From Flavobacteriaceae bacterium (lineage in GTDB: Bacteria; Bacteroidota; Bacteroidia; Flavobacteriales; Flavobacteriaceae): a stretch of DNA of 64,000 bases. How positions within the stretch are numbered: the first letter of the stretch is position 1; each line of letters begins with the position of its first letter. The stretch spans positions 1 to 64,000 of the forward strand of contig JANSXN010000005.1 in the NCBI GenBank assembly GCA_024742935.1, given 5' to 3'. Shown here in pieces: positions 23,032 through 36,725 of this stretch. The position numbers were made by a program, and so were the translations under genes. The notes below the pieces were generated by a model that saw only the letters and a program-made list of their open reading frames with translations, was not told the origin of the DNA and did no database searches.

Positions 23032-23039
23032 TATATTTG
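23032..23039 (+). promoter_or_regulatory. Bacteroidetes-type -7 promoter element of the his operon
   Basis: TATATTTG matches TAnnTTTG; 19 nt before the leader ATG. Confidence 0.6.
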
Positions 23040-23058
23040 CATCATCAAACTTTTAAAA

Positions 23059-23112
23059 ATGAAATTAATCACTTTACATCACCATCATCATTCTGGCCAA
23101 CAGGCGAGCTGA
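23059..23112 (+). CDS. hisL: his operon leader peptide MKLITLHHHHHSGQQAS
   Basis: 17 codons with five consecutive His codons directly upstream of an attenuator hairpin and hisG. Confidence 0.93.
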   Translation: MKLITLHHHHHSGQQAS

Positions 23113-23143
23113 TGATTCTATGTAGTGATTTTACATAAAATTT

Positions 23144-23176
23144 AAAACCCGTCTGAGTATCTCTGACGGGTTTTTT
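23144..23176 (+). terminator. his attenuator terminator
   Basis: AAAACCCGTC-T-GAG-TAT-CTC-T-GACGGGTTTTTT. Confidence 0.93.
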
Positions 23177-23222: not shown

Positions 23223-24080
23223 ATGAGTAAACTAAAAATTGCCATCCAAAAAAGTGGCCGCTTGAGTGAAAAATCCATCAAGCTCATTCAGGAGTGTGGA
23301 ATCAAGGTTTCAAATGGTGAGCGTAAACTCAAATCTGAGTCCTCAAATTTTCCTATTGAAATCCTCTTTTTGCGTGACGACGACATCCCGCAATATGTGG
23401 AACAAGGCGTTGTAGATATTGGAATTCTCGGCGAAAATGAAGTCTGGGAAAAAGAAAAAAACGTAACCGTCGTTTCAAAACTGGGTTTTGCTAACTGTAA
23501 GCTTTCACTTGCCATTCCAAAAGATGAAATCTATACAGATAGTTCCTATTTTTCCGGAAAGCGTATTGCAACTTCCTATCCCAACATCCTTCAAAGGTAT
23601 TTTGATGCTAAAAACATTACAGTCGAAATTGAAGAAATTGGCGGTAGTGTTGAAATTGCCACAGGAATTGGCCTCGCTGATGCTGTTTTTGATATCGTAA
23701 GCACCGGAAGTACCCTTTTAATGAATGGACTCAAGGAAGTGGAAGTGGTTACAAAAAGTGAAGCGGTACTAATCTCAAACACAAAATTAAGTAACGAAAA
23801 ACAAGAAATACTTGACCGGCTTCTCTTTAGAATCAATGCCGTTAAAAACGGAAGCGATCACAAATACATCCTTCTTAACTGCCCTGTTAAAGCCCTCGAT
23901 CAAATCACCCAACTAATTCCCGGAATGAAATCACCCACCATTTTACCTCTGGCCAATAAGGAATGGTGCAGCTTACATTCAGTGGTAAAAGAAGATGAAT
24001 TCTGGGACGTCATAGACCAATTGAAAGCCCACGGTGCAGAGGGAATTCTTGTTGTCCCAATTGAAAAAATGGTACTCTAA
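23223..24080 (+). CDS. hisG: ATP phosphoribosyltransferase
   Basis: KLKIAIQKSGRLSEKS...DAVFDIVSTGSTL; first gene of the his operon. Confidence 0.97.
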   Translation: MSKLKIAIQKSGRLSEKSIKLIQECGIKVSNGERKLKSESSNFPIEILFLRDDDIPQYVEQGVVDIGILGENEVWEKEKNVTVVSKLGFANCKLSLAIPKDEIYTDSSYFSGKRIATSYPNILQRYFDAKNITVEIEEIGGSVEIATGIGLADAVFDIVSTGSTLLMNGLKEVEVVTKSEAVLISNTKLSNEKQEILDRLLFRINAVKNGSDHKYILLNCPVKALDQITQLIPGMKSPTILPLANKEWCSLHSVVKEDEFWDVIDQLKAHGAEGILVVPIEKMVL

Positions 24081-24094
24081 AAAAATAGATTCAA

Positions 24095-25384
24095 ATGAAA
24101 AAAATAAAATTTCCCAAGCCTGAAACCTGGCCCGAATTGTCAAAGCGACCTTTGATTGATTTTACATCGATTTCAGATACGGTTCAAAAGGTATTTCAGG
24201 CGATTAAAAATAATGGAGATGGAAGTGTAAAAGCATATACTAACCTGTTTGATGGAGTAGAACTTGAAAAACTTCAAGTGTCTCAAGACGAAATCAAAAA
24301 AAGTCTGGAGAGAGTGCCTGAAGATTTAAAACAAGCCATCCAGCTTGCTGCTGCAAACATTGAAAAATTTCACAGAACGCAAATTGATCAACCACAAAAA
24401 ACAGAAACCACAACAGGTGTTGTTTGCTGGCGTGAAAGCAGGCCCATAGATCGAGTAGGTATTTACATTCCCGGAGGAACAGCACCCTTGTTTTCAACAG
24501 TATTGATGCTCGGTATTCCCGCAAAAATTGCCGGATGTTCCGAAATTGTTTTATGCACTCCGCCAGATAAGAACGGAACTATCAATCCAACAATTTTATA
24601 CACCGCTCAACTCATAGGAATCACAAAACTCTTTAAAGTTGGTGGTATTCAAGCGGTTGCTGCTATGACATTCGGGACCGATAGTATTCCCCATGTAGAT
24701 AAAATTTTTGGTCCCGGAAATCAATATGTCACAGCTGCCAAGCTACAAGCACAGAATTATGGAGTCGCCATCGATATGCCTGCCGGACCCAGTGAGGTAC
24801 TGGTTATTGCAGATCAAAGTGCTGTTCCTTCATTTGTTGCAGCCGATTTGCTTTCTCAGGCAGAACATGGAACCGATAGTCAGGTGATTTTGCTTTCTGA
24901 TCATGAACAAATCATCGATGCTGTGCTTAAAGAAGTCACCATCCAAATGGAAGCGCTTCCGCGAAAGCAATTGGCTGCACAAGCCTTGTTGAGTAGTAAG
25001 GCTATTCTACTTAAATCAGTGGAAGAATGCATTAATTTTAGCAATCAATATGCTCCTGAACACTTGATTTTAGCCATTGAAAACTATAACGAAGCTATCC
25101 CCAAAATCACAAATGCAGGCTCTGTTTTTCTTGGTAATTACAGCTGTGAAAGTGCCGGCGATTATGCCAGCGGGACCAATCACACCTTGCCCACAAACGG
25201 CTATGCCCGCAATTACAGCGGTGTTTCGCTGGACAGTTTTGTCAAAAAAATCACCTTTCAGGAACTTAGTTCACAAGGAATTAGAAACATAGGCCCTGCC
25301 ATCGAGCTCATGGCCGAAGCAGAACAACTGCAAGCACACAAAAATGCAGTCACCTTACGTCTTAAAGCTTTACAAAATGGATAA
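24095..25384 (+). CDS. hisD: histidinol dehydrogenase
   Basis: VGIYIPGGTAPLFSTVLM, DMPAGPSEVLVIAD, SAGDYASGTNHTLPT. Confidence 0.97.
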   Translation: MKKIKFPKPETWPELSKRPLIDFTSISDTVQKVFQAIKNNGDGSVKAYTNLFDGVELEKLQVSQDEIKKSLERVPEDLKQAIQLAAANIEKFHRTQIDQPQKTETTTGVVCWRESRPIDRVGIYIPGGTAPLFSTVLMLGIPAKIAGCSEIVLCTPPDKNGTINPTILYTAQLIGITKLFKVGGIQAVAAMTFGTDSIPHVDKIFGPGNQYVTAAKLQAQNYGVAIDMPAGPSEVLVIADQSAVPSFVAADLLSQAEHGTDSQVILLSDHEQIIDAVLKEVTIQMEALPRKQLAAQALLSSKAILLKSVEECINFSNQYAPEHLILAIENYNEAIPKITNAGSVFLGNYSCESAGDYASGTNHTLPTNGYARNYSGVSLDSFVKKITFQELSSQGIRNIGPAIELMAEAEQLQAHKNAVTLRLKALQNG

Positions 25385-26402
25385 TATAGAGAATTTAGTA
25401 AGAGAAAACATTCGCAAACTGAAACCGTATTCCAGTGCGCGTGAAGAATTTAGTGGAACTAAAGGCATTTTTCTGGATGCCAATGAAAATCCGTTTGGCG
25501 AGTTCAATCGGTATCCGGATCCGTATCAAAAACAGTTGAAAGAAAAATTGAGTCAATACAAGGAGATTCCATCAAAAAACATCTTTATAGGGAACGGAAG
25601 CGATGAAATCATCGATCTGGTTTTTCGTATATTCTGTGAGCCGGGTAAAGATAAAGTGATCACTTTCCCACCTACCTATGGTATGTATGAAGTCTCTGCA
25701 GCAATCAATAACGTGGAAGTAATAACCGTCCCTTTAACTATTGATTTTCAAATAGATTTTGAAGCCTTCAATAAACAAATAGAGACAAATGAAAACATCA
25801 AAATTGTGTTTGTGTGTTCACCAAACAACCCCACCGGAAACAGCATCAACAAAATCGAAAAACTGCTGAAATCAAATACCATCGTGGTCGTAGATGAAGC
25901 CTACATTGACTTTTCAGATCATCCTTCACTTCTTGGGAAATTTTTGAATTTCCCCAATTTGATTGTCCTGCATACCTTTAGTAAATCCCTTGGTTTGGCA
26001 GCAGCCAGAGTGGGCGTAGCCTATGCAGGTGAAGACATCATCAAGCTGATGAATAAAGTAAAACCACCTTACAATGTGAGCACCCTAAATCAAAAAGCCG
26101 CACTGAAGGTACTTAAAAATCATGAAGCTACGAGAAGACATCTCGACCTGATTTATAAAGAAAGAAAACGGGTTTTTAAAGCCCTTTTGAAACTGGAGCG
26201 AGTCATTAACATCTACCCATCAGATGCCAATTTTCTTTTGGTGGAACTTAAAGATGCCACTGCAGTTTACAACAAACTGGTTGAAAAGAATATCATCATT
26301 AGAAACAGAACTAATGTGGTCAAAAACTGCGTGCGCATCACCATTGGAACTTCTGAAGAAAACAACCAATTAATCAAAGAACTTAAAATGCTAAGTATAT
26401 GA
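25377..26402 (+). CDS. hisC: histidinol-phosphate aminotransferase
   Basis: [15 protein letters not shown]... LDANENPFG ... [16 protein letters not shown] at 25377 preferred over the track start 25344. Confidence 0.96.
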
Positions 26403-27490
26403 AAAAAATACTCTTTATAGACCGTGACGGTACACTTGTCATTGAGCCACCGATAGATTATCAGCTCGACAGCCTTGAAAAACTGGAGTTTTATCCGGGT
26501 GTGTTTCAGTACCTGGCGCGCATCGCTGCAGAACTCGATTTTGAATTGGTGATGGTCACCAATCAGGATGGCTTAGGAACGTCATCTTTTCCTGAAGACA
26601 CCTTTTGGCCCGCACAAAATAAAATCATTCAGGCCTTTGAAAATGAAGGGATTTATTTTTCGGAAATTTTGATTGACAAATCCTTTCCTGGGGACAATGC
26701 ACCCACCAGAAAACCGGGAACTGCACTACTCACACATTACATCAAAGGAAATTATGATATGGAAAATTCCTATGTTATAGGCGACCGAATGACAGACGTG
26801 CAACTTGCAAAAAACCTGGGTTCAAAGGCTATTTTTATTTCAGAAGGGAATAATGAAGATGCTATATTAAATACAACTTCATGGAGTGAGATTTACACCT
26901 TTTTGAAAGCGCTTCCGCGAAAGGAAACGGTGCTGCGCACCACAAATGAAACCCAAATCAGTGTCACAGTCAACCTCGATGGCTCCGGGAAAAGCAGTAT
27001 CAGCACTGGACTCGGTTTTTTTGACCATATGCTGGAGCAAATCGCTAAACATGGAAATCTGGATTTGAGTATTCAAGTGCAAGGCGATTTACACATCGAT
27101 GAACACCACACCATTGAAGATGTTGCCATCACTTTTGGTGAGGCGTTTTTAAAGGCTTTGGGTTCTAAAAAAGGCATTGAGCGTTATGGATTTTTATTGC
27201 CTATGGACGACTGTTTGGCACAGGTGGCAATTGATTTTGGCGGCAGACCCTGGTTGGTTTGGGAAGCAGATTTTAAACGTGAAAAAATAGGAGAGATGCC
27301 CACCGAAATGTTTATGCACTTTTTCAAATCCTTTAGTGACCACGCAAAATGCAACCTGAATATCAAAGCCGAAGGAGAGAACGAACATCACAAGATTGAA
27401 GCAATTTTTAAAGGGTTTGCGAAAGCGATAAAAAACGCCGTTTCAAAAACTGAAAATTATTCCATACCCAGCACAAAAGGTACTTTATGA
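26399..27490 (+). CDS. hisB: bifunctional histidinol-phosphatase / imidazoleglycerol-phosphate dehydratase
   Basis: N-terminal HAD (LFIDRDGTL) plus C-terminal IGPD ([27 protein letters not shown]). Confidence 0.97.
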
Positions 27491-28065
27491 TTGCGATACT
27501 AAAATACAATGCAGGAAACACCACTTCGGTTAAAAACGCTGTGGAACGACTGGGCTTTACCTGTCTGGTTACCGATGACCTTGAAATCATTCAAAAAGCA
27601 GACAAAGTCATCTTTCCCGGAGTGGGAGAGGCAAGTACCGCAATGGCTTATTTGAAAGAACGAAAGCTTGACATCCTTATAAAATCACTACAACAACCCG
27701 TTTTAGGTATTTGTTTGGGCTTGCAATTGCTTTGCAAACACAGCGAAGAGGGAGACACGACCTGTATCGGGGTTTTTGAGGTTGAAGTAAAGCGGTTTCC
27801 AAATGTTATCATCGTTCCGCATATGGGATGGAATGTAATGGTTTTGAAGGATAATAAACTACTCAAAGGCATTTCAGAAAATGACGATGTGTATTTCGTT
27901 CACAGCTATTATGCTGAGGTTTCAGACGATACCACAGCAATCTGTAACTACGGAGTTCCGTTTAGTGCCGTGATGCAAAAAAATAATTTTTACGCCACCC
28001 AGTTCCACCCTGAAAAATCAGCCGGAGTAGGGGAGCGCATCCTTAAAAACTTCTTGAACCTATGA
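27487..28065 (+). CDS. hisH: imidazole glycerol phosphate synthase, glutamine amidotransferase subunit
   Basis: GICLGLQLL triad region, [13 protein letters not shown]. Confidence 0.97.
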
Positions 28066-28775
28066 GAATAATCCCAGCCATAGATATCATCAACGGAAAA
28101 TGTGTAAGACTCTCAAAAGGAGATTATACAACACAAAAAACATATAGTGAACGACCGCTTGAAGTAGCCAAATCGTTTGAAGACCACGGCATCAAATACT
28201 TGCATCTCGTCGATTTGGACGGCGCACGATCCAAACACATTGTCAATCATAAGATGCTGTATCAAATCGCCTCAAAAACAAATTTAAAAATCGATTTTGG
28301 TGGCGGCCTGAAATCAGATGCCGATCTAAAAATTGCTTTCGAAAATGGTGCCAGTCAAATTACCGGAGGAAGTATTGCAGTTTCAAATCCCGAAGTTTTT
28401 GAAAATTGGTTACAGTTGTATGGTGCCAAAAAAATCATTTTAGGCGCAGACGCCAATAACCGAAAAATTGCTACCCACGGATGGAAAGAAACTTCTACAC
28501 TTGATGTGATTGAATTTATTAAAAACTATGAATCCAAAGGCATCCAACAAGTGATTTGTACAGATATCGCTAAAGATGGCATGCTGCAAGGGCCTTCTTT
28601 TGAGCTTTACGCTGAAATAGTGAATGAAACTAAGGTTCAACTCATCGCCAGTGGAGGTGTTTCAGAATTTAATGACCTTATAAAACTAAGAGAGCTGGGT
28701 TGTGAAGGCGTTATTTTGGGAAAAGCGATATATGAAGGAAAAATTACGTTAAAAGAATTAGAAAAATTATGCTAA
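28062..28775 (+). CDS. hisA: ProFAR isomerase
   Basis: [22 protein letters not shown]. Confidence 0.97.
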
Positions 28776-29527
28776 AAAAGAGAATAATACCTTGTCTTGA
28801 TATTGCTAACGGAAGGACTGTAAAAGGAGTTAATTTTATTGATATTCGGGATGCCGGTGATCCTATTGAACTCGCCAAACGCTATGTTGAAGAAGGTGCA
28901 GACGAACTCGTTTTTCTCGATATCACAGCTACCCTTGAAAAGCGCAAAACACTGGTTGCGCTTGTTACTGAAATTGCATCGGCGATCAATATTCCCTTTA
29001 CAGTTGGAGGTGGAATCAATACGCTTGAAGATGCTAAAGCTGTCATTCTCGCAGGCGCCGATAAGGTAAGTATCAACAGTGCAGCCATCAGAAACCCCGA
29101 GTTGATTTCAGAAATCTCAAGCCATTTTGGCAATCAATGTGTGGTAGTGGCAATGGACGTAAAAAACACAAATGGCGCGTGGAGCGTATTCAGTCACGGC
29201 GGTAAAACACCCACTGGTCTCGATGCTTTGGAATGGGCACTGGAAGCAGAACGTCGCGGTGCCGGTGAAATCTTGCTCACCTCTATGAACAACGACGGTA
29301 CCAAAAACGGTTTTGCCATTGATATAACAAACACCATTAGTAGAGCACTGAAAATCCCAGTGATTGCTTCGGGTGGAGCCGGGATGATGGTTCATTTTAA
29401 AGAAGTGTTTCAGCAAACAAAAGCCGGTGCTGCTCTGGCAGCGAGTATTTTTCATTTTGGAGAAATACCCATTCCGCAACTCAAAAAATATTTACAAACT
29501 CAAAAAATACCTGTAAGATGTCTATAG
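28769..29527 (+). CDS. hisF: imidazole glycerol phosphate synthase, cyclase subunit
   Basis: [22 protein letters not shown]. Confidence 0.97.
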
Positions 29528-30105
29528 ACTTTTCAAAAACAGATGGCCTTGTCCCTGTCATAATTCAAGATTTTGCCAGCAATCAGGTCTTGATGCTTGG
29601 TTATATGAATGAAGAAGCTTTCGCCAAAACGAAACAAGATTGTAAAGTTACTTTTTTTAGCAGAAGTAAAAATCGGTTGTGGACGAAAGGGGAAACCTCC
29701 GGCAATTTTCTGCTAGTAAAAGAAATGTTGATTGACTGTGACCAAGACACCCTACTCATTAAAGCCGAACCCCAAGGACCCACTTGCCACACAGGAAGCA
29801 AAACTTGCTTCAAAGAAGAAACTGCCAAAGGGTTTCTCTATCAGTTAGAACAAACCATTAAAAAAAGAATAGAAACTGGTGATGAAAAATCATACACACG
29901 CGATTTGGTTCAAAAAGGCATCAACAAAGTCGCCCAAAAAGTGGGGGAAGAAGCCATTGAGCTCATAATAGAGTCCAAAGATTCCAATGAGGATTTGTTT
30001 AAAAATGAAGCAGCAGATTTGTTATTTCACTATTTGATATTGCTCAAGGTGAAAGGGTTTTCATTAGAAGAAATAGAACAAGTACTGAAATTAAGGGCAA
30101 AATAA
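29518..30105 (+). CDS. hisIE: bifunctional phosphoribosyl-AMP cyclohydrolase / phosphoribosyl-ATP pyrophosphatase
   Basis: [20 protein letters not shown]-terminal His[14 protein letters not shown]. Confidence 0.97.
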
Positions 30106-30143: not shown

Positions 30144-30151
30144 TATATTTG
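30144..30151 (+). promoter_or_regulatory. Bacteroidetes-type -7 promoter element of the trp operon
   Basis: TATATTTG, identical to the his box; ATG of the leader is 9 nt downstream. Confidence 0.6.
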
Positions 30152-30160
30152 TTTTTCAAT

Positions 30161-30226
30161 ATGAGAAACTCAAATCAATACAACGCTTGGTGGTGGCAAT
30201 CTAAATCCCGAATAGGATTCAGGTAG
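30161..30226 (+). CDS. trpL: trp operon leader peptide MRNSNQYNAWWWQSKSRIGFR
   Basis: 21 codons with three consecutive Trp codons (30188-30196), followed by an attenuator and trpE. Confidence 0.93.
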   Translation: MRNSNQYNAWWWQSKSRIGFR

Positions 30227-30260
30227 TTGTGCCATGTTTTTTTGTAACCAAAATAAACCA

Positions 30261-30288
30261 AGCCCGCTGAATCCAGCGGGCTTTTTTT
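30261..30288 (+). terminator. trp attenuator terminator
   Basis: AGCCCGCTG-AATC-CAGCGGGCT, perfect 9-bp stem, followed by a T run. Confidence 0.95.
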
Positions 30289-30321
30289 ATGCCAAAAAAT
30301 CGAGAATTTAAGAAACATACA

Positions 30322-31713
30322 ATGACATTTACTTTTAAAACAAACATCAAAAAAACACTCAGTGACACCCATACTCCGGTGGAAGTCTATCTCAAATTCA
30401 GGGATAAATATCCCGGTTGTTTTTTGCTGGAAAGTTCTGATTACAAAAGCAAGGAGAACAGTTTTTCTTACATCTGTTTGCAGTCAATCGCTTCGTTTTC
30501 TGTGGACAAAAACCTGACTACAGTTAGATACCCCGGTGAGCCAAAGCAGGTGCTAAAAACCAATGAAACCAAAATTCCGGAAGCGCTGAATGCTTTTGTA
30601 AAATCATTTAAAACTGATGAGCAGGAGTATGATTTTGTCACCAGCGGACTCTTTGGTTACACTTCTTATGATGCCATCCCGCTGTTTGAGGAAATCGACT
30701 TTACCAATCAGGATTTTGACCTACCACTTATTGAGTACCATCTTTTTAAATACATCATTGTCTTTAACCATTTCAACAATGAACTTTTTCTTGTCGAGCA
30801 ACAAGCACAAGGCGAAAATTCTCAGTTATCAGAAATTGAAGACCTATTAAATCACCGCACTATCACACAGTTTAAATTCTCAATCGTTGCCGAAGAAACC
30901 TCCAATTTTAACGATGCTGACTTTTTAAGTAAAATCAATAAAGGCATTGAACATTGTCACAAAGGCGATGTGTTTCAGGTGGTGCTTTCGCGAAAGTATT
31001 TCCAAAAATTCAAAGGAGATGAGTTTAATGTTTACAGAGCATTAAGGTCTATAAACCCTTCGCCATACTTGTTTTATTTTGATTTTGGAAACTTTAAAAT
31101 TTTCGGCTCTTCGCCAGAAGCCCAACTCACTATTTCTAATCAAAAAGCCATCATCAATCCCATAGCCGGCACCTTCAAGCGTACCGGAAACACCGTTGAA
31201 GATGCTCAAATAGCCGAAGCCTTAAGCAATGACCCTAAAGAAAATGCAGAACACATTATGCTGGTGGATTTGGCAAGAAATGATTTGAGTAAAAACAGTA
31301 CTGCAGTAATCGTTGATAGTTTTAAGCAGGTGGAATATTATTCACACGTCATTCATCTGGTTTCTAAAGTAAGTGCCACTTTAGATAAAGATTACAACCC
31401 CATAAAAATTTTGGGAGACACCTATCCAGCAGGTACTTTGTCAGGGGCGCCCAAGCACAGGGCGATGCAAATCATTGATGAGAACGAGCCGCATAGCCGC
31501 GGTTTCTATGGTGGAACAATCGGCATCATTGGTTTGAACGGTTCCTTTAATCACGCTATCTTTATCCGTTCATTTTTGAGCAGGAAAAACACCTTAACCT
31601 ATCAGGCAGGTTGTGGTATTGTTGCTAAGTCAGTTCCAGAAAGTGAACTTATTGAAGTAGAAAATAAATTATCAGCCCTACGTAAATCCTTAGAACTCGC
31701 TAAAACATTATAA
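30322..31713 (+). CDS. trpE: anthranilate synthase component I
   Basis: Chorismate-binding motifs NPIAGTFKRTGNT, YPAGTLSGAPKHRAMQIIDE; the track start 30289 abuts the terminator T run, so ATG 30322 is preferred. Confidence 0.95.
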   Translation: MTFTFKTNIKKTLSDTHTPVEVYLKFRDKYPGCFLLESSDYKSKENSFSYICLQSIASFSVDKNLTTVRYPGEPKQVLKTNETKIPEALNAFVKSFKTDEQEYDFVTSGLFGYTSYDAIPLFEEIDFTNQDFDLPLIEYHLFKYIIVFNHFNNELFLVEQQAQGENSQLSEIEDLLNHRTITQFKFSIVAEETSNFNDADFLSKINKGIEHCHKGDVFQVVLSRKYFQKFKGDEFNVYRALRSINPSPYLFYFDFGNFKIFGSSPEAQLTISNQKAIINPIAGTFKRTGNTVEDAQIAEALSNDPKENAEHIMLVDLARNDLSKNSTAVIVDSFKQVEYYSHVIHLVSKVSATLDKDYNPIKILGDTYPAGTLSGAPKHRAMQIIDENEPHSRGFYGGTIGIIGLNGSFNHAIFIRSFLSRKNTLTYQAGCGIVAKSVPESELIEVENKLSALRKSLELAKTL

Positions 31714-31714
31714 A

Positions 31715-32278
31715 ATGAAAATACTGGTTATCGATAATTATGACTCCTTTGTGTACAACATAGTTCATTATTTGGAGAATTTGGATGTAAAACAAGTACA
31801 CGTTGTTAAAAATGACAAGTTTGAGCTCGATTTAATCAATAGCTATGATAAAATTGTTTTGTCACCCGGTCCGGGCATCCCAAAAGACGCCGGTTTGATG
31901 CCTCAGGTGATTCGTGAATTTGGAGCCACAAAACCCATACTTGGAGTTTGTTTAGGACATCAGGCCATCGCCGAAAGTTTTGGCGGCATGCTCCATAACT
32001 TAGAAAGTCCGTTGCACGGAATTGCTTCTCAGGTTGAGGTCATTCAAGAAGATTATTTATTTAAAAATATTCCAAAGCAATTCCATATTGGGCATTACCA
32101 TTCGTGGGTAGTAAAACCGCAATTACCAATCGGTTTAGAAGTTTTAGCAAAAGATGGTTACGGAAATATCATGGCTTTAAAGCACAGCAGTTTTGATTTG
32201 CGCGGTGTCCAGTTTCACCCGGAATCTGTACTTACAGAACACGGTCACCAATTGCTTGAAAATTGGATAAAACAATAA
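31715..32278 (+). CDS. trpG: anthranilate synthase component II (glutamine amidotransferase)
   Basis: MKILVIDNYDSFVYNIVHYLE, GVCLGHQAIAE, GVQFHPESVLTEHG. Confidence 0.96.
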   Translation: MKILVIDNYDSFVYNIVHYLENLDVKQVHVVKNDKFELDLINSYDKIVLSPGPGIPKDAGLMPQVIREFGATKPILGVCLGHQAIAESFGGMLHNLESPLHGIASQVEVIQEDYLFKNIPKQFHIGHYHSWVVKPQLPIGLEVLAKDGYGNIMALKHSSFDLRGVQFHPESVLTEHGHQLLENWIKQ

Positions 32279-32287
32279 AAAGAGCAG

Positions 32288-33280
32288 ATGAAAGAAATAC
32301 TAGAATACCTCTACCAGCACAAAACCCTGACAAAAAAAGAGGCAAAGCAAATCCTGACGGATATCGCTTCAGAAAGATACAATCATTATGAAGTCACTTC
32401 ATTTTTAACGGCATTCATTATGCGCAACATCACGATTGAGGAGTTGAGGGGCTTTCGTGAAGCATTGGTTGAACTGGCTATCAAAGTTGATTTGTCAGAC
32501 TACAACCCGATGGATGTTTGCGGTACCGGCGGGGATGGTAAAAACACCTTTAATGTTTCTACACTCACTTCCCTTGTGGTTGCGGGAGCGGGAATTCCTG
32601 TTGCCAAGCACGGTAATTATGGGGTGTCCTCCATTTCGGGCTCTTCCAATGTGCTGGAAGCGATGGGCGTTGTTTTTCATACAGATGAATCCAAACTCAA
32701 GCAGCAACTTGAGAAAGCAAATATCTGTTTTATGCACGCCCCATTATTTCATCCTGCCATGAAGTTTGTGGCTCCCGTGAGACGCGAACTGGGAGTAAAA
32801 ACCTTTTTCAATATGCTGGGTCCTTTGGTGAATCCGGCACGGCCAAAAGTACAAATGACCGGGGTGTTCAGTATGGAACTCGCGCGGATGTATCAGTACC
32901 TTTTTCAGGAGGAAGAGATGCAATATGCTATTGTCTATGGATTGGATGGTTATGACGAAATCACCCTGACTTCAGAAACTAAAATCATTACCCATGAGGA
33001 AGAATACATCACAGACGCTGAAGGCTTCGGTTTTGAAAAAGTGACACAACAAGCGATTCACGGCGGTGATACGATTGAAGAATCGGCCACTATTTTTAAG
33101 ACCATCCTTGACGGAAAAGGTACCCGGGCCCAGAACAATGTCGTTCTTGCAAATGCTGCTGTTGCTATTTCGTGTTATCAAAACAAGCTTGACAGAGAAA
33201 CTGCATTACAACTTGCTGAAGAATCACTTCTTGGAGGTAGAGCAAAACACACACTCAAAACATTAATTGCATTGCAATGA
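32288..33280 (+). CDS. trpD: anthranilate phosphoribosyltransferase
   Basis: DVCGTGGDGKNTFNVST, KHGNYGVSSISGSSNVLEA. Confidence 0.96.
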   Translation: MKEILEYLYQHKTLTKKEAKQILTDIASERYNHYEVTSFLTAFIMRNITIEELRGFREALVELAIKVDLSDYNPMDVCGTGGDGKNTFNVSTLTSLVVAGAGIPVAKHGNYGVSSISGSSNVLEAMGVVFHTDESKLKQQLEKANICFMHAPLFHPAMKFVAPVRRELGVKTFFNMLGPLVNPARPKVQMTGVFSMELARMYQYLFQEEEMQYAIVYGLDGYDEITLTSETKIITHEEEYITDAEGFGFEKVTQQAIHGGDTIEESATIFKTILDGKGTRAQNNVVLANAAVAISCYQNKLDRETALQLAEESLLGGRAKHTLKTLIALQ

Positions 33281-34068
33281 ACATACTCGACACCATAAAA
33301 CAGTACAAAATTAAAGAGGTTGCACGGCAAAAAGCTATGTATCCCATACAACTGCTTGAACAAAGCATCTTCTTTGAAAGCCCTTGTGTCTCTTTTTCGG
33401 GCTATGTGGCAGACCCAAACCGTAGCGGGATTATCGCCGAGTTCAAACGAAAATCTCCATCAAAGGGCGATATCAACAAATATGCAAATCCGGAAGAGGT
33501 GACCATTGGTTATATGCAGGCCGGTGCAGCCGCATTGTCTGTGCTGACTGATGAACATTTTTTTGGCGCCAAAAAAGAAGACTTATCCACAGCCCGCCGT
33601 TTCAGCCTTTGTCCCATACTCAGAAAAGAATTTATAGTGGACGAGTATCAAATTATTGAAGCCAAATCCCTGGGAGCTGATGCAATCTTACTGATTGCTA
33701 AAATGATTTCGGTACAAGAAATTGAAAACTTTACGGCACTTGCACACCAATTAGGAATGGAAGTCTTGCTGGAAACCCATACAGAATCTGAGGTTTTGAG
33801 TCATAGCGAAAGCGAGGCCGATGCTTTTGGGATCAACAACAGAAACCTGACCACATTTGAAGTTTCTGTTGAAAACAGTATTCGTTTGTCAGAAATGCTA
33901 CCCAAAACAAAACTAAAAATAGCTGAAAGTGGCATCGATTCCATAGATACCATCAAACAACTAAAAGTTAACGGATTTGAAGGGTTTTTAATTGGTGAAT
34001 ATTTTATGAAACACAGCGATCCCGGGGCGAGGTGTAAGGAGTTTATAAGAAGTTTGTCACTCGCTTAA
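33277..34068 (+). CDS. trpC: indole-3-glycerol phosphate synthase
   Basis: IIAEFKRKSPSKGDI, LRKEFIVDEYQI, INNRNL. Confidence 0.96.
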   Translation: MNILDTIKQYKIKEVARQKAMYPIQLLEQSIFFESPCVSFSGYVADPNRSGIIAEFKRKSPSKGDINKYANPEEVTIGYMQAGAAALSVLTDEHFFGAKKEDLSTARRFSLCPILRKEFIVDEYQIIEAKSLGADAILLIAKMISVQEIENFTALAHQLGMEVLLETHTESEVLSHSESEADAFGINNRNLTTFEVSVENSIRLSEMLPKTKLKIAESGIDSIDTIKQLKVNGFEGFLIGEYFMKHSDPGARCKEFIRSLSLA

Positions 34069-34086
34069 ATATTTACTTAAATAATA

Positions 34087-34125
34087 CCACAGAGTTACAC
34101 AAAGAAGCGCAAAGTGACACAGAGG
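34087..34125. repeat. CACAGAG/CACAAAG-type degenerate repeat in the trpC-trpF gap
   Basis: CCACAGAGTTACACAAAGAAGCGCAAAGTGACACAGAGG; repeated (C/G)(A/G)CA(G/A)AG units. Confidence 0.5.
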
Positions 34126-34148
34126 AATATAAAATCGAATTTAGTGAT

Positions 34149-34784
34149 ATGAAAATCAAAATTTGCGGACTTAAAGAATTGCATAACATACAACAGGTTT
34201 CAGAAGCAAACCCAGATTATATGGGATTTATATTTTACCCAAAATCAAGCCGGTTTGTGGGTTATGAATTTTCAAAAACTACTTCGGCTGAAATACCTGA
34301 TAACATCATAAAAACAGCTGTATTTGTGAACGATAGCATAGAAAACATATCGAAAATTGTTCAGAAATATGAGTTTAAAGCAGTACAACTACACGGCCAT
34401 GAATCACCGGAAACGTGCAGGCAACTGAAATTTCAGAACCTGATTGTGATCAAAGCCTTTGCGATGGATGACTCTTTTGATTTTGCTGCGATGCATCCTT
34501 ATGAAAACCAATGTGATTACTTTTTATTTGACACTAAAACCAATCAATATGGCGGAAGTGGGCAAACCTTCAACTGGGAACTTTTGGAGAAATACAATTC
34601 AGAAACCCCATTCTTTTTAAGCGGCGGATTGGGCGTTGAAAATCTGGAAGCGGTTTTAAAACTTAAACATGATAAACTTTATGGGCTTGATTTCAACAGC
34701 AGGTTAGAGGATAAACCCGGTTTAAAGAACATACCATTGATTAATAAAGTACTTGATACCATTAAAAATTATGAACACATTTAG
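34149..34784 (+). CDS. trpF: phosphoribosylanthranilate isomerase
   Basis: [36 protein letters not shown]. Confidence 0.95.
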
Positions 34785-35955
34785 TCCGACAAAAGAGGGG
34801 TTTTACGGTGAGTTTGGAGGTGCTTTTGTACCCGAAATGCTGTATCCCAATGTGCTGGAACTTCAAAACCGTTACCGGGAAATCATTGAAACAGATGCCT
34901 TTCAAAAGGAATTTAGTGAACTTTTACGGGATTATGTGGGTCGGCCCACACCGCTGTTTTATTCCAAAAACCTTTCAAAAGAACATGGGGCACATATCTA
35001 TCTGAAACGCGAAGATCTCAACCATACCGGAGCACATAAAATCAACAACACCATCGGGCAAATTCTGGTCGCAAAAAAATTAAACAAGAAACGCATCATT
35101 GCCGAAACCGGTGCCGGTCAGCACGGTGTTGCTACCGCTACCGCCTGTGCCTTGATGGGACTGGAGTGTGTTATTTATATGGGTGCGGTTGATATTGAAA
35201 GGCAAAAGCCCAATGTGGACAGAATGAAGCTGCTGGGTGCTGAAGTCGTTTCCGCCACGAGTGGGAGCAAAACCCTCAAAGATGCCACCAATGAAGCCAT
35301 CAGGGCGTGGATTAACAACCCGGTGGATACGCATTATATCATCGGTTCGGTCGTGGGACCCCATCCTTATCCGGATATGGTAGCGATGTTTCAATCGGTG
35401 ATTAGCGAAGAAATAAAATTACAACTAAAAGAAAAAACAGGCAGCGAAAATCCTGATTATGTCATTGCTTGCCTTGGCGGCGGAAGTAATGCCATTGGTG
35501 CCTTTTACCATTTTATAGATAATAACAAAACAAAACCCATTGCAGTCGAAGCCGGTGGGGAAGGGGTGTATTCAGGAAAAACAGCCGCTACGATTGCATT
35601 AGGTAAAAAGGGTATTATTCACGGCAGTAAAACCTACCTGATTCAAACCGAAGACGGTCAAATAGTTGAACCGCATTCCATTTCTGCAGGTCTCGACTAT
35701 CCCGGGATTGGTCCTGTACATGCCTATTTGAACGATACAAAAAAGGCAACTGTGGTTTCTGTAACCGATGAGGAAGCCTTGGAAGCAGCGCACGAACTTT
35801 CCCAAAAGGACGGCATCATTCCGGCTTTAGAATCGGCACACGCTTTGGCTTATTTGAAAAAAATGACCTTTAAAAAAGAGGATGTGGTTGTGATTAACCT
35901 TTCCGGAAGAGGGGACAAGGACCTGGCGACTTACCAAAAACATTTAAAACTATGA
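34771..35955 (+). CDS. trpB: tryptophan synthase beta chain
   Basis: [32 protein letters not shown] 34771 preferred. Confidence 0.97.
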
Positions 35956-36725
35956 GCGTAAGACTAACAACACTTTTCGAAAAAAAGAAAAGCAACATCC
36001 TTTCTGTTTATTTCACAGCGGGTTATCCTGAAATTAATGATACCTTGAAAATTGTCAAAAACCTGGATGCAGCGGGAGTCGATTTTATTGAAATAGGGAT
36101 GCCTTTTTCAGACCCACTGGCAGACGGGCCCGTGATTCAGGAAAGCAGTCAAAAAGCAATCCAAAACGGAATGACTATCAATCTGCTTTTTGAACAGTTA
36201 ACAGATTTGAGAAAGCAAACCCAAATCCCGGTGGTGTTGATGGGGTATTTGAACCCGGTGATGCAGTATGGCGAGGAAGCCTTTTTATCAAAATGTGCAG
36301 AAGTGGGTATTGACGGACTTATTTTACCCGATTTACCTATGGAGATTTACAATCAGGATTGGAAGGTTTTAACTAAAAAATTTGATATTTCAAACATATT
36401 CTTGATAACGCCTCAATCTTCAGAAGAAAGAATCAAAGCCATAGACAACGCCTCAAACGGTTTTGTGTATGTGGTATCTTCAAACAGTATTACGGGCACC
36501 AATAAAAAGTTTGACCGTCAAGCGGAATACTATAACAGCATCAAACAAATGAATTTAAAGAATCCCACACTGATTGGTTTTGGAATCCACGATAGTGAAA
36601 CTTTTAAAGAGGCTTGTCAGTACAGTAATGGTGTTATAGTTGGAACGGCTTTTATTAAACACATTTCAAAGCAAGGAATATGTAAGGATTCAATTTCAAG
36701 TTTTGTGGTGCAATTAAAAGGCTAA
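35952..36725 (+). CDS. trpA: tryptophan synthase alpha chain
   Basis: [19 protein letters not shown]. Confidence 0.97.

Follow-up and report, generated by a model that had tools for sequence, protein, structure and literature searches.

The interval between hisIE and trpE in the Planktosalinus genome raises the question of whether the trpEGDCFBA operon that it precedes is switched by tryptophan supply through its own transcript and, if so, how such a switch is set in motion and where it came from. A preliminary description had proposed a leader-peptide attenuator at this site, and all coordinates and letters that it gave for the elements within 30144-30322 agree with a direct reading of the DNA. 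The elements and their gene setting in the window (the whole stretch of 64,000 nucleotides that was analysed) are collected in Table 1. The leader ORF encodes 21 residues from ATG 30161 to TAG 30224-30226 and does contain the three tandem Trp codons attributed to it. For trpE, the start at 30322 is the most likely one, since alignments with homologues begin near residue 12 of the longer ORF; the alternative ATG abuts the terminator. The names trpG to trpA were assigned from sequence similarity together with gene order. A second leader-peptide attenuator candidate is located upstream of hisG (23032-23173; fold z -5.95).

Table 1. Features of the trp attenuator, its gene setting, and the related loci named in the text
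Feature	Position or loci	Strand	Basis or remark
Bacteroidota sigma-A -7 box TATATTTG	30144..30151	+	consensus TAHHTTTG; predicted transcription start about 30156-30157
Leader peptide ORF MRNSNQYNAWWWQSKSRIGFR*	30161..30226	+	A at -3, without Shine-Dalgarno; conserved in relatives
Three tandem Trp codons, putative stall site	30188..30196	+	TGG codons read in sequence
1:2 (protector/pause) hairpin	30190..30235	+	RNAfold; core AATCC 30204-30208 / GGATT 30215-30219
Antiterminator 5' strand GGATTCAG (segment 2)	30215..30222	+	within leader ORF; exact complement of 30267-30274; pairing kept in relatives
Antiterminator 3' strand CTGAATCC (segment 3)	30267..30274	+	spans terminator 5'-arm end, loop, first 3'-arm base
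Intrinsic terminator AGCCCGCTG-AATC-CAGCGGGCT + T-run	30261..30288	+	hairpin 30261-30282; sequence, folding, relatives
trpE	30322..31713	+	start 30322 preferred over ATG 30289
trpG, trpD, trpC, trpF, trpB, trpA	31715..36725	+	ORFs; order common to relatives
his operon (hisG to hisIE), immediately upstream	23223..30105	+	ORFs, gene order
-7 box of hisG leader candidate	23032-23039		
hisG leader candidate ORF MKLITLHHHHHSGQQAS	23059-23112		five His codons
hisG leader candidate terminator AAACCCGTC...GACGGGTTT	23145-23173		
Native trp site (yceI-trxB)	L218, L219, L229, L230, L231		
NWWH leaders upstream of trpE	L035, L037-L040, L042, L043, L046, L047, L052		
Tandem trp leaders	L055 (Myroides albus), L057 (Fulvivirga lutimaris), L061, L086, L103, L216 (G204, G204:C26)		
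Further tandem relative	L240 (G219)		

The leader region before trpE is very probably a ribosome-mediated transcription attenuator for trpEGDCFBA, a reading in which promoter position, ribosome occupancy, and the response to tryptophan are deduced from the sequence. Transcription would begin near 30156 at a sigma-A promoter of the Bacteroidota type, and a ribosome would load on the nearly leaderless AUG and trail the polymerase. When charged tRNA-Trp is scarce, the ribosome would stall at the Trp codons and leave GGATTCAG free to pair with CTGAATCC; the terminator would then be blocked and the operon transcribed. With plentiful tryptophan, the ribosome would reach the TAG at 30224 and cover segment 2, and the terminator would end transcription. 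In a leader that is not translated, the 1:2 hairpin would sequester segment 2, which makes termination the predicted default.

The pairings behind this scheme can be read directly and folded. GGATTCAG is the exact reverse complement of CTGAATCC, as had been claimed, and the terminator hairpin followed by T residues is borne out by both the sequence and RNAfold. Antiterminator and terminator are mutually exclusive, since CTGAATCC takes in the terminator 5'-arm end, the loop, and the first base of the 3' arm; folding agrees. For 30156-30290, RNAfold predicts both the 1:2 hairpin and the terminator (z = -3.9), and none of 200 shuffles was as stable. The antiterminator forms at -13.5 kcal/mol once segment 1 is removed and the RNA is cut at 30274, and its 8-bp score is matched by 0.5% of leader-end base shuffles. 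The terminator is thermodynamically favoured over the antiterminator, so that control must be kinetic. For the pause hairpin of the preliminary description, the coordinates are right (including the outer arms, TGGCA at 30194-30198 and TGCCA at 30230-30234) and the fold is predicted by RNAfold, but the stability of this hairpin alone does not exceed that of shuffles (z = -0.8 for 30156-30258). Within the 2.63-Mb genome, TGGTGGTGGCA occurs twice, at the attenuator and inside a secG-like coding sequence; the latter copy was rejected as another attenuator, being coding DNA. DNA similar to the attenuator was not found in plasmids.

Relatives retain all attenuator elements. Among 110 sampled Flavobacteriaceae regions upstream of trpE, almost every one from a genus of its own, 104 carry a Trp-run leader ORF, and a hairpin-plus-T terminator follows each (locus L034, where the leader region reads N, was left out); most other Bacteroidota trpE loci sampled likewise carry such a leader and terminator. 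Covariation between homologues, the absence of which had been named beforehand as refuting the attenuator, is present. The helix between leader end and terminator loop scores 16.6, against 13.8 +/- 0.3 with leaders swapped between loci and a maximum of 14.8 in 1000 swaps (79 distinct loops; distinct sequences only, one mismatch or bulge tolerated). Its letters differ by lineage: where this locus has GGATTCAG/CTGAATCC, common Flavobacteriaceae have CGTGAA/TTCACG, a freshwater Flavobacterium group has TGGAA/TTCCA, and Cytophagales-type loci have GTGAACAGC/GCTGTTCAC and TGAATCGG/CCGATTCA. Within the window's own clade, antiterminator covariation is only moderate: the 12 distinct sequences score 15.4 against 13.4 +/- 0.85 when swapped, a real score that the top swap out of 1000 (15.9) surpassed. 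The terminator stem is 99.5% paired among 21 relatives in the clade, with two-sided changes at 7 of the 9 pairs (36 cells with such changes against 9.1 expected in shuffles), and sliding the stem partners drops pairing to 25-57%.

These comparisons bear on whether the hairpin is merely the terminator of the his operon, with the short ORF arising by chance and trpE transcribed from a constitutive promoter of its own. The hairpin is indeed a strong terminator some 155 bp downstream of hisIE; this explanation is nevertheless very improbable, as Trp-run leaders precede trpE also where no his operon lies upstream, and the loop-to-leader pairing covaries. The conserved elements and the covariation across Bacteroidota support control of the trp operon by a leader-peptide attenuator, as originally put forward.

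Both TRAP-like proteins and T-boxes act on trp operons in Firmicutes, and a Trp-responsive protein of the former kind or a T-box could in principle govern the terminator here, the leader peptide being incidental. The Trp codons, however, are the most conserved leader bases in the aligned relatives (no change occurs in the first two TGG codons across 21 of them), and neither the T-box nor any other regulatory family reaches its Rfam cut-off at the locus, which leaves this kind of control a still slighter chance than a simple his terminator. The leader might also work mainly through translation or RNA stability instead of termination, given that leader ORFs are able to act through reinitiation (PMC4833913). 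This is equally hard to credit: the leader stop lies 95 nt before the trpE start with the terminator in between, and the stem, which T residues follow, has been maintained through two-sided changes.

The attenuator proposed here is of a kind already known in Bacteroidota. Among the likely cis-regulatory RNAs that Weinberg et al. (2010, PMC2864571) listed for Bacteroidetes is Rfam RF01692 ("Bacteroid-trp"), the motif was noted upstream of the Flavobacterium psychrophilum trp operon (PMC6414381), and the transcriptome of that species holds clues of leader-peptide attenuation for amino-acid operons (PMC9723704). The window shares with RF01692 the Trp-codon leader, terminator, and antiterminator upstream of trp genes in a member of the Bacteroidota, as well as a terminator loop that falls within the antiterminator 3' strand. 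Its score against the model is 22.2 bits (E 4.5), below the cut-off of 49, and the alignment stops inside the terminator. The cut-off is passed by none of 20 loci from the window's TrpE clade and by 11 of 20 other Bacteroidota loci, ten of which are Flavobacteriaceae. The locus is a divergent relative of Bacteroid-trp and not a member by the curated test. Segment 2 also differs in position: here it is part of the leader ORF and comes right ahead of the stop codon, while the corresponding CGTGA of common Flavobacteriaceae leaders contains the stop. Second weak RF01692 matches (in G042, G201, G009, G015, and G204:C32) have no Trp leader on reading and were taken as noise.

The likeness to enterobacterial trpL that had been pointed out stands for the regulatory logic. 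The window and the enterobacterial leader (RF00513) share the 1:2 / 2:3 / 3:4 arrangement and a similar GCCCGC...GCGGGC terminator, and the window scores 33.7 bits against RF00513 (cut-off 41), mostly from the terminator, which is read as resemblance and not as membership. The closest known system, however, is the Bacteroidota family of 2010, and initiation differs from that in E. coli: the leader here has no Shine-Dalgarno sequence and a near-leaderless predicted 5' UTR, besides WWW in place of WW and a host of a different phylum.

A clade-built RNA model (R1), made without the leader start and without trpE, finds further Trp leaders before trpE, trpB, or trpD in other Bacteroidota families. 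Many weak matches to it (about 30-37 bits) have no Trp leader and were taken as chance terminators. Trp-run leaders are also found upstream of trpB (L269) and trpD (L271), which suggests that each part of a split trp cluster has an attenuator of its own. Leaders of the freshwater Flavobacterium group, whose trp genes follow the his operon, have His in place of the third Trp codon (NWWH).

The TrpE tree places the window's protein in a clade of 26 loci (SH-aLRT 100) that is separate from the usual TrpE of Flavobacteriaceae; the protein of the congener G202 falls with the latter. Within this clade, a his operon lies directly upstream of trp in Planktosalinus and in the freshwater Flavobacterium group. 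The site between yceI and trxB is occupied in G202 (L219, G202:C73) by an ordinary trp operon, which has an RF01692 leader. At the same site in G201 (L218, G201:C79), the leader is intact, trpE is broken, and trpG is the sole other trp gene left, while G000, G042, and G203 have no trp genes there and only a small gene. These arrangements are best explained if a transferred operon, arriving with an attenuator of its own and now lying behind the his operon, took the place of the native one, the order of events being the one that the remnants suggest.

The start of the leader transcript adds a feature absent from the preliminary description. A gap of 9 nt separates the -7 box TATATTTG from the leader ATG. 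Transcription in F. johnsoniae starts 4-5 nt past this box (PMC6847099), and the same spacing predicts a 5' UTR of about 3-5 nt here, an estimate drawn from the box-to-AUG distance. In the 102 leaders of the family that have such a box no more than 40 nt away, this distance is 4-5 nt in 32, the family peak, corresponding to a predicted 5' UTR of 0-1 nt, and at most 12 nt in 65; a second group has 14-21 nt. Of 62 protein-coding ORFs taken for comparison from the same DNA (at least 150 aa, box within 40 nt), only 9 have at most 12 nt, and most of the 62 fall at 17-34 nt (Fisher P about 3e-10, an optimistic value since relatives share ancestry). The leader mRNA here would be leaderless or nearly so, unlike those of ordinary genes, which is new as a prediction. 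Leaderless mRNAs make up 5.5% in F. psychrophilum (PMC9723704), and 5' UTRs shorter than 10 nt about 3.7% in Bacteroides thetaiotaomicron (PMC7366714). A report of near-leaderless trp leaders in Bacteroidota was not found in the literature searched, most subscription journals being outside its scope. The Trp attenuator trpL of Sinorhizobium meliloti, the RNA of which begins at the leader AUG (PMC7298713), provides a precedent outside Bacteroidota; the likeness lies in the described RNA start, and that host, unlike the present one, is an Alphaproteobacterium.

At six loci, two Trp leaders stand in series before trpE, with one terminator after the first and another after the second. Four of the six have a single -7 box, before the first leader only; a consensus -7 box was not found at L055 and L216. 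Tandem attenuators, two of them ORF-based within one leader, are known for Salmonella mgtCBR (PMC3641672). Both cases stack two such units; they differ in operon and regulation, both units carrying Trp runs here. Tandem attenuators for trp, new as a prediction for some relatives, were not found reported in the searchable literature. On balance, it seems fairly likely that trp attenuators of Bacteroidota, a phylum lacking Shine-Dalgarno signals, are preferentially leaderless or nearly so, the AUG meeting a ribosome on leaving the polymerase, and that several lineages stack two complete attenuators in series behind one promoter.

The covariation now confirms a Bacteroidota class that the papers found mention only as a computed motif, and an entire branch of Bacteroidota trp attenuators escapes the Rfam model. 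The apparent horizontal acquisition of an operon together with its attenuator, leaving the genus's usual trp site empty, is new as a prediction. The predicted near-leaderless feature, checkable in existing transcription-start maps, concerns how attenuation could be timed without Shine-Dalgarno initiation. With the tandem loci, nature has provided cases in which serial attenuation could be tested: if the reading is true, two attenuators in series would steepen the response.
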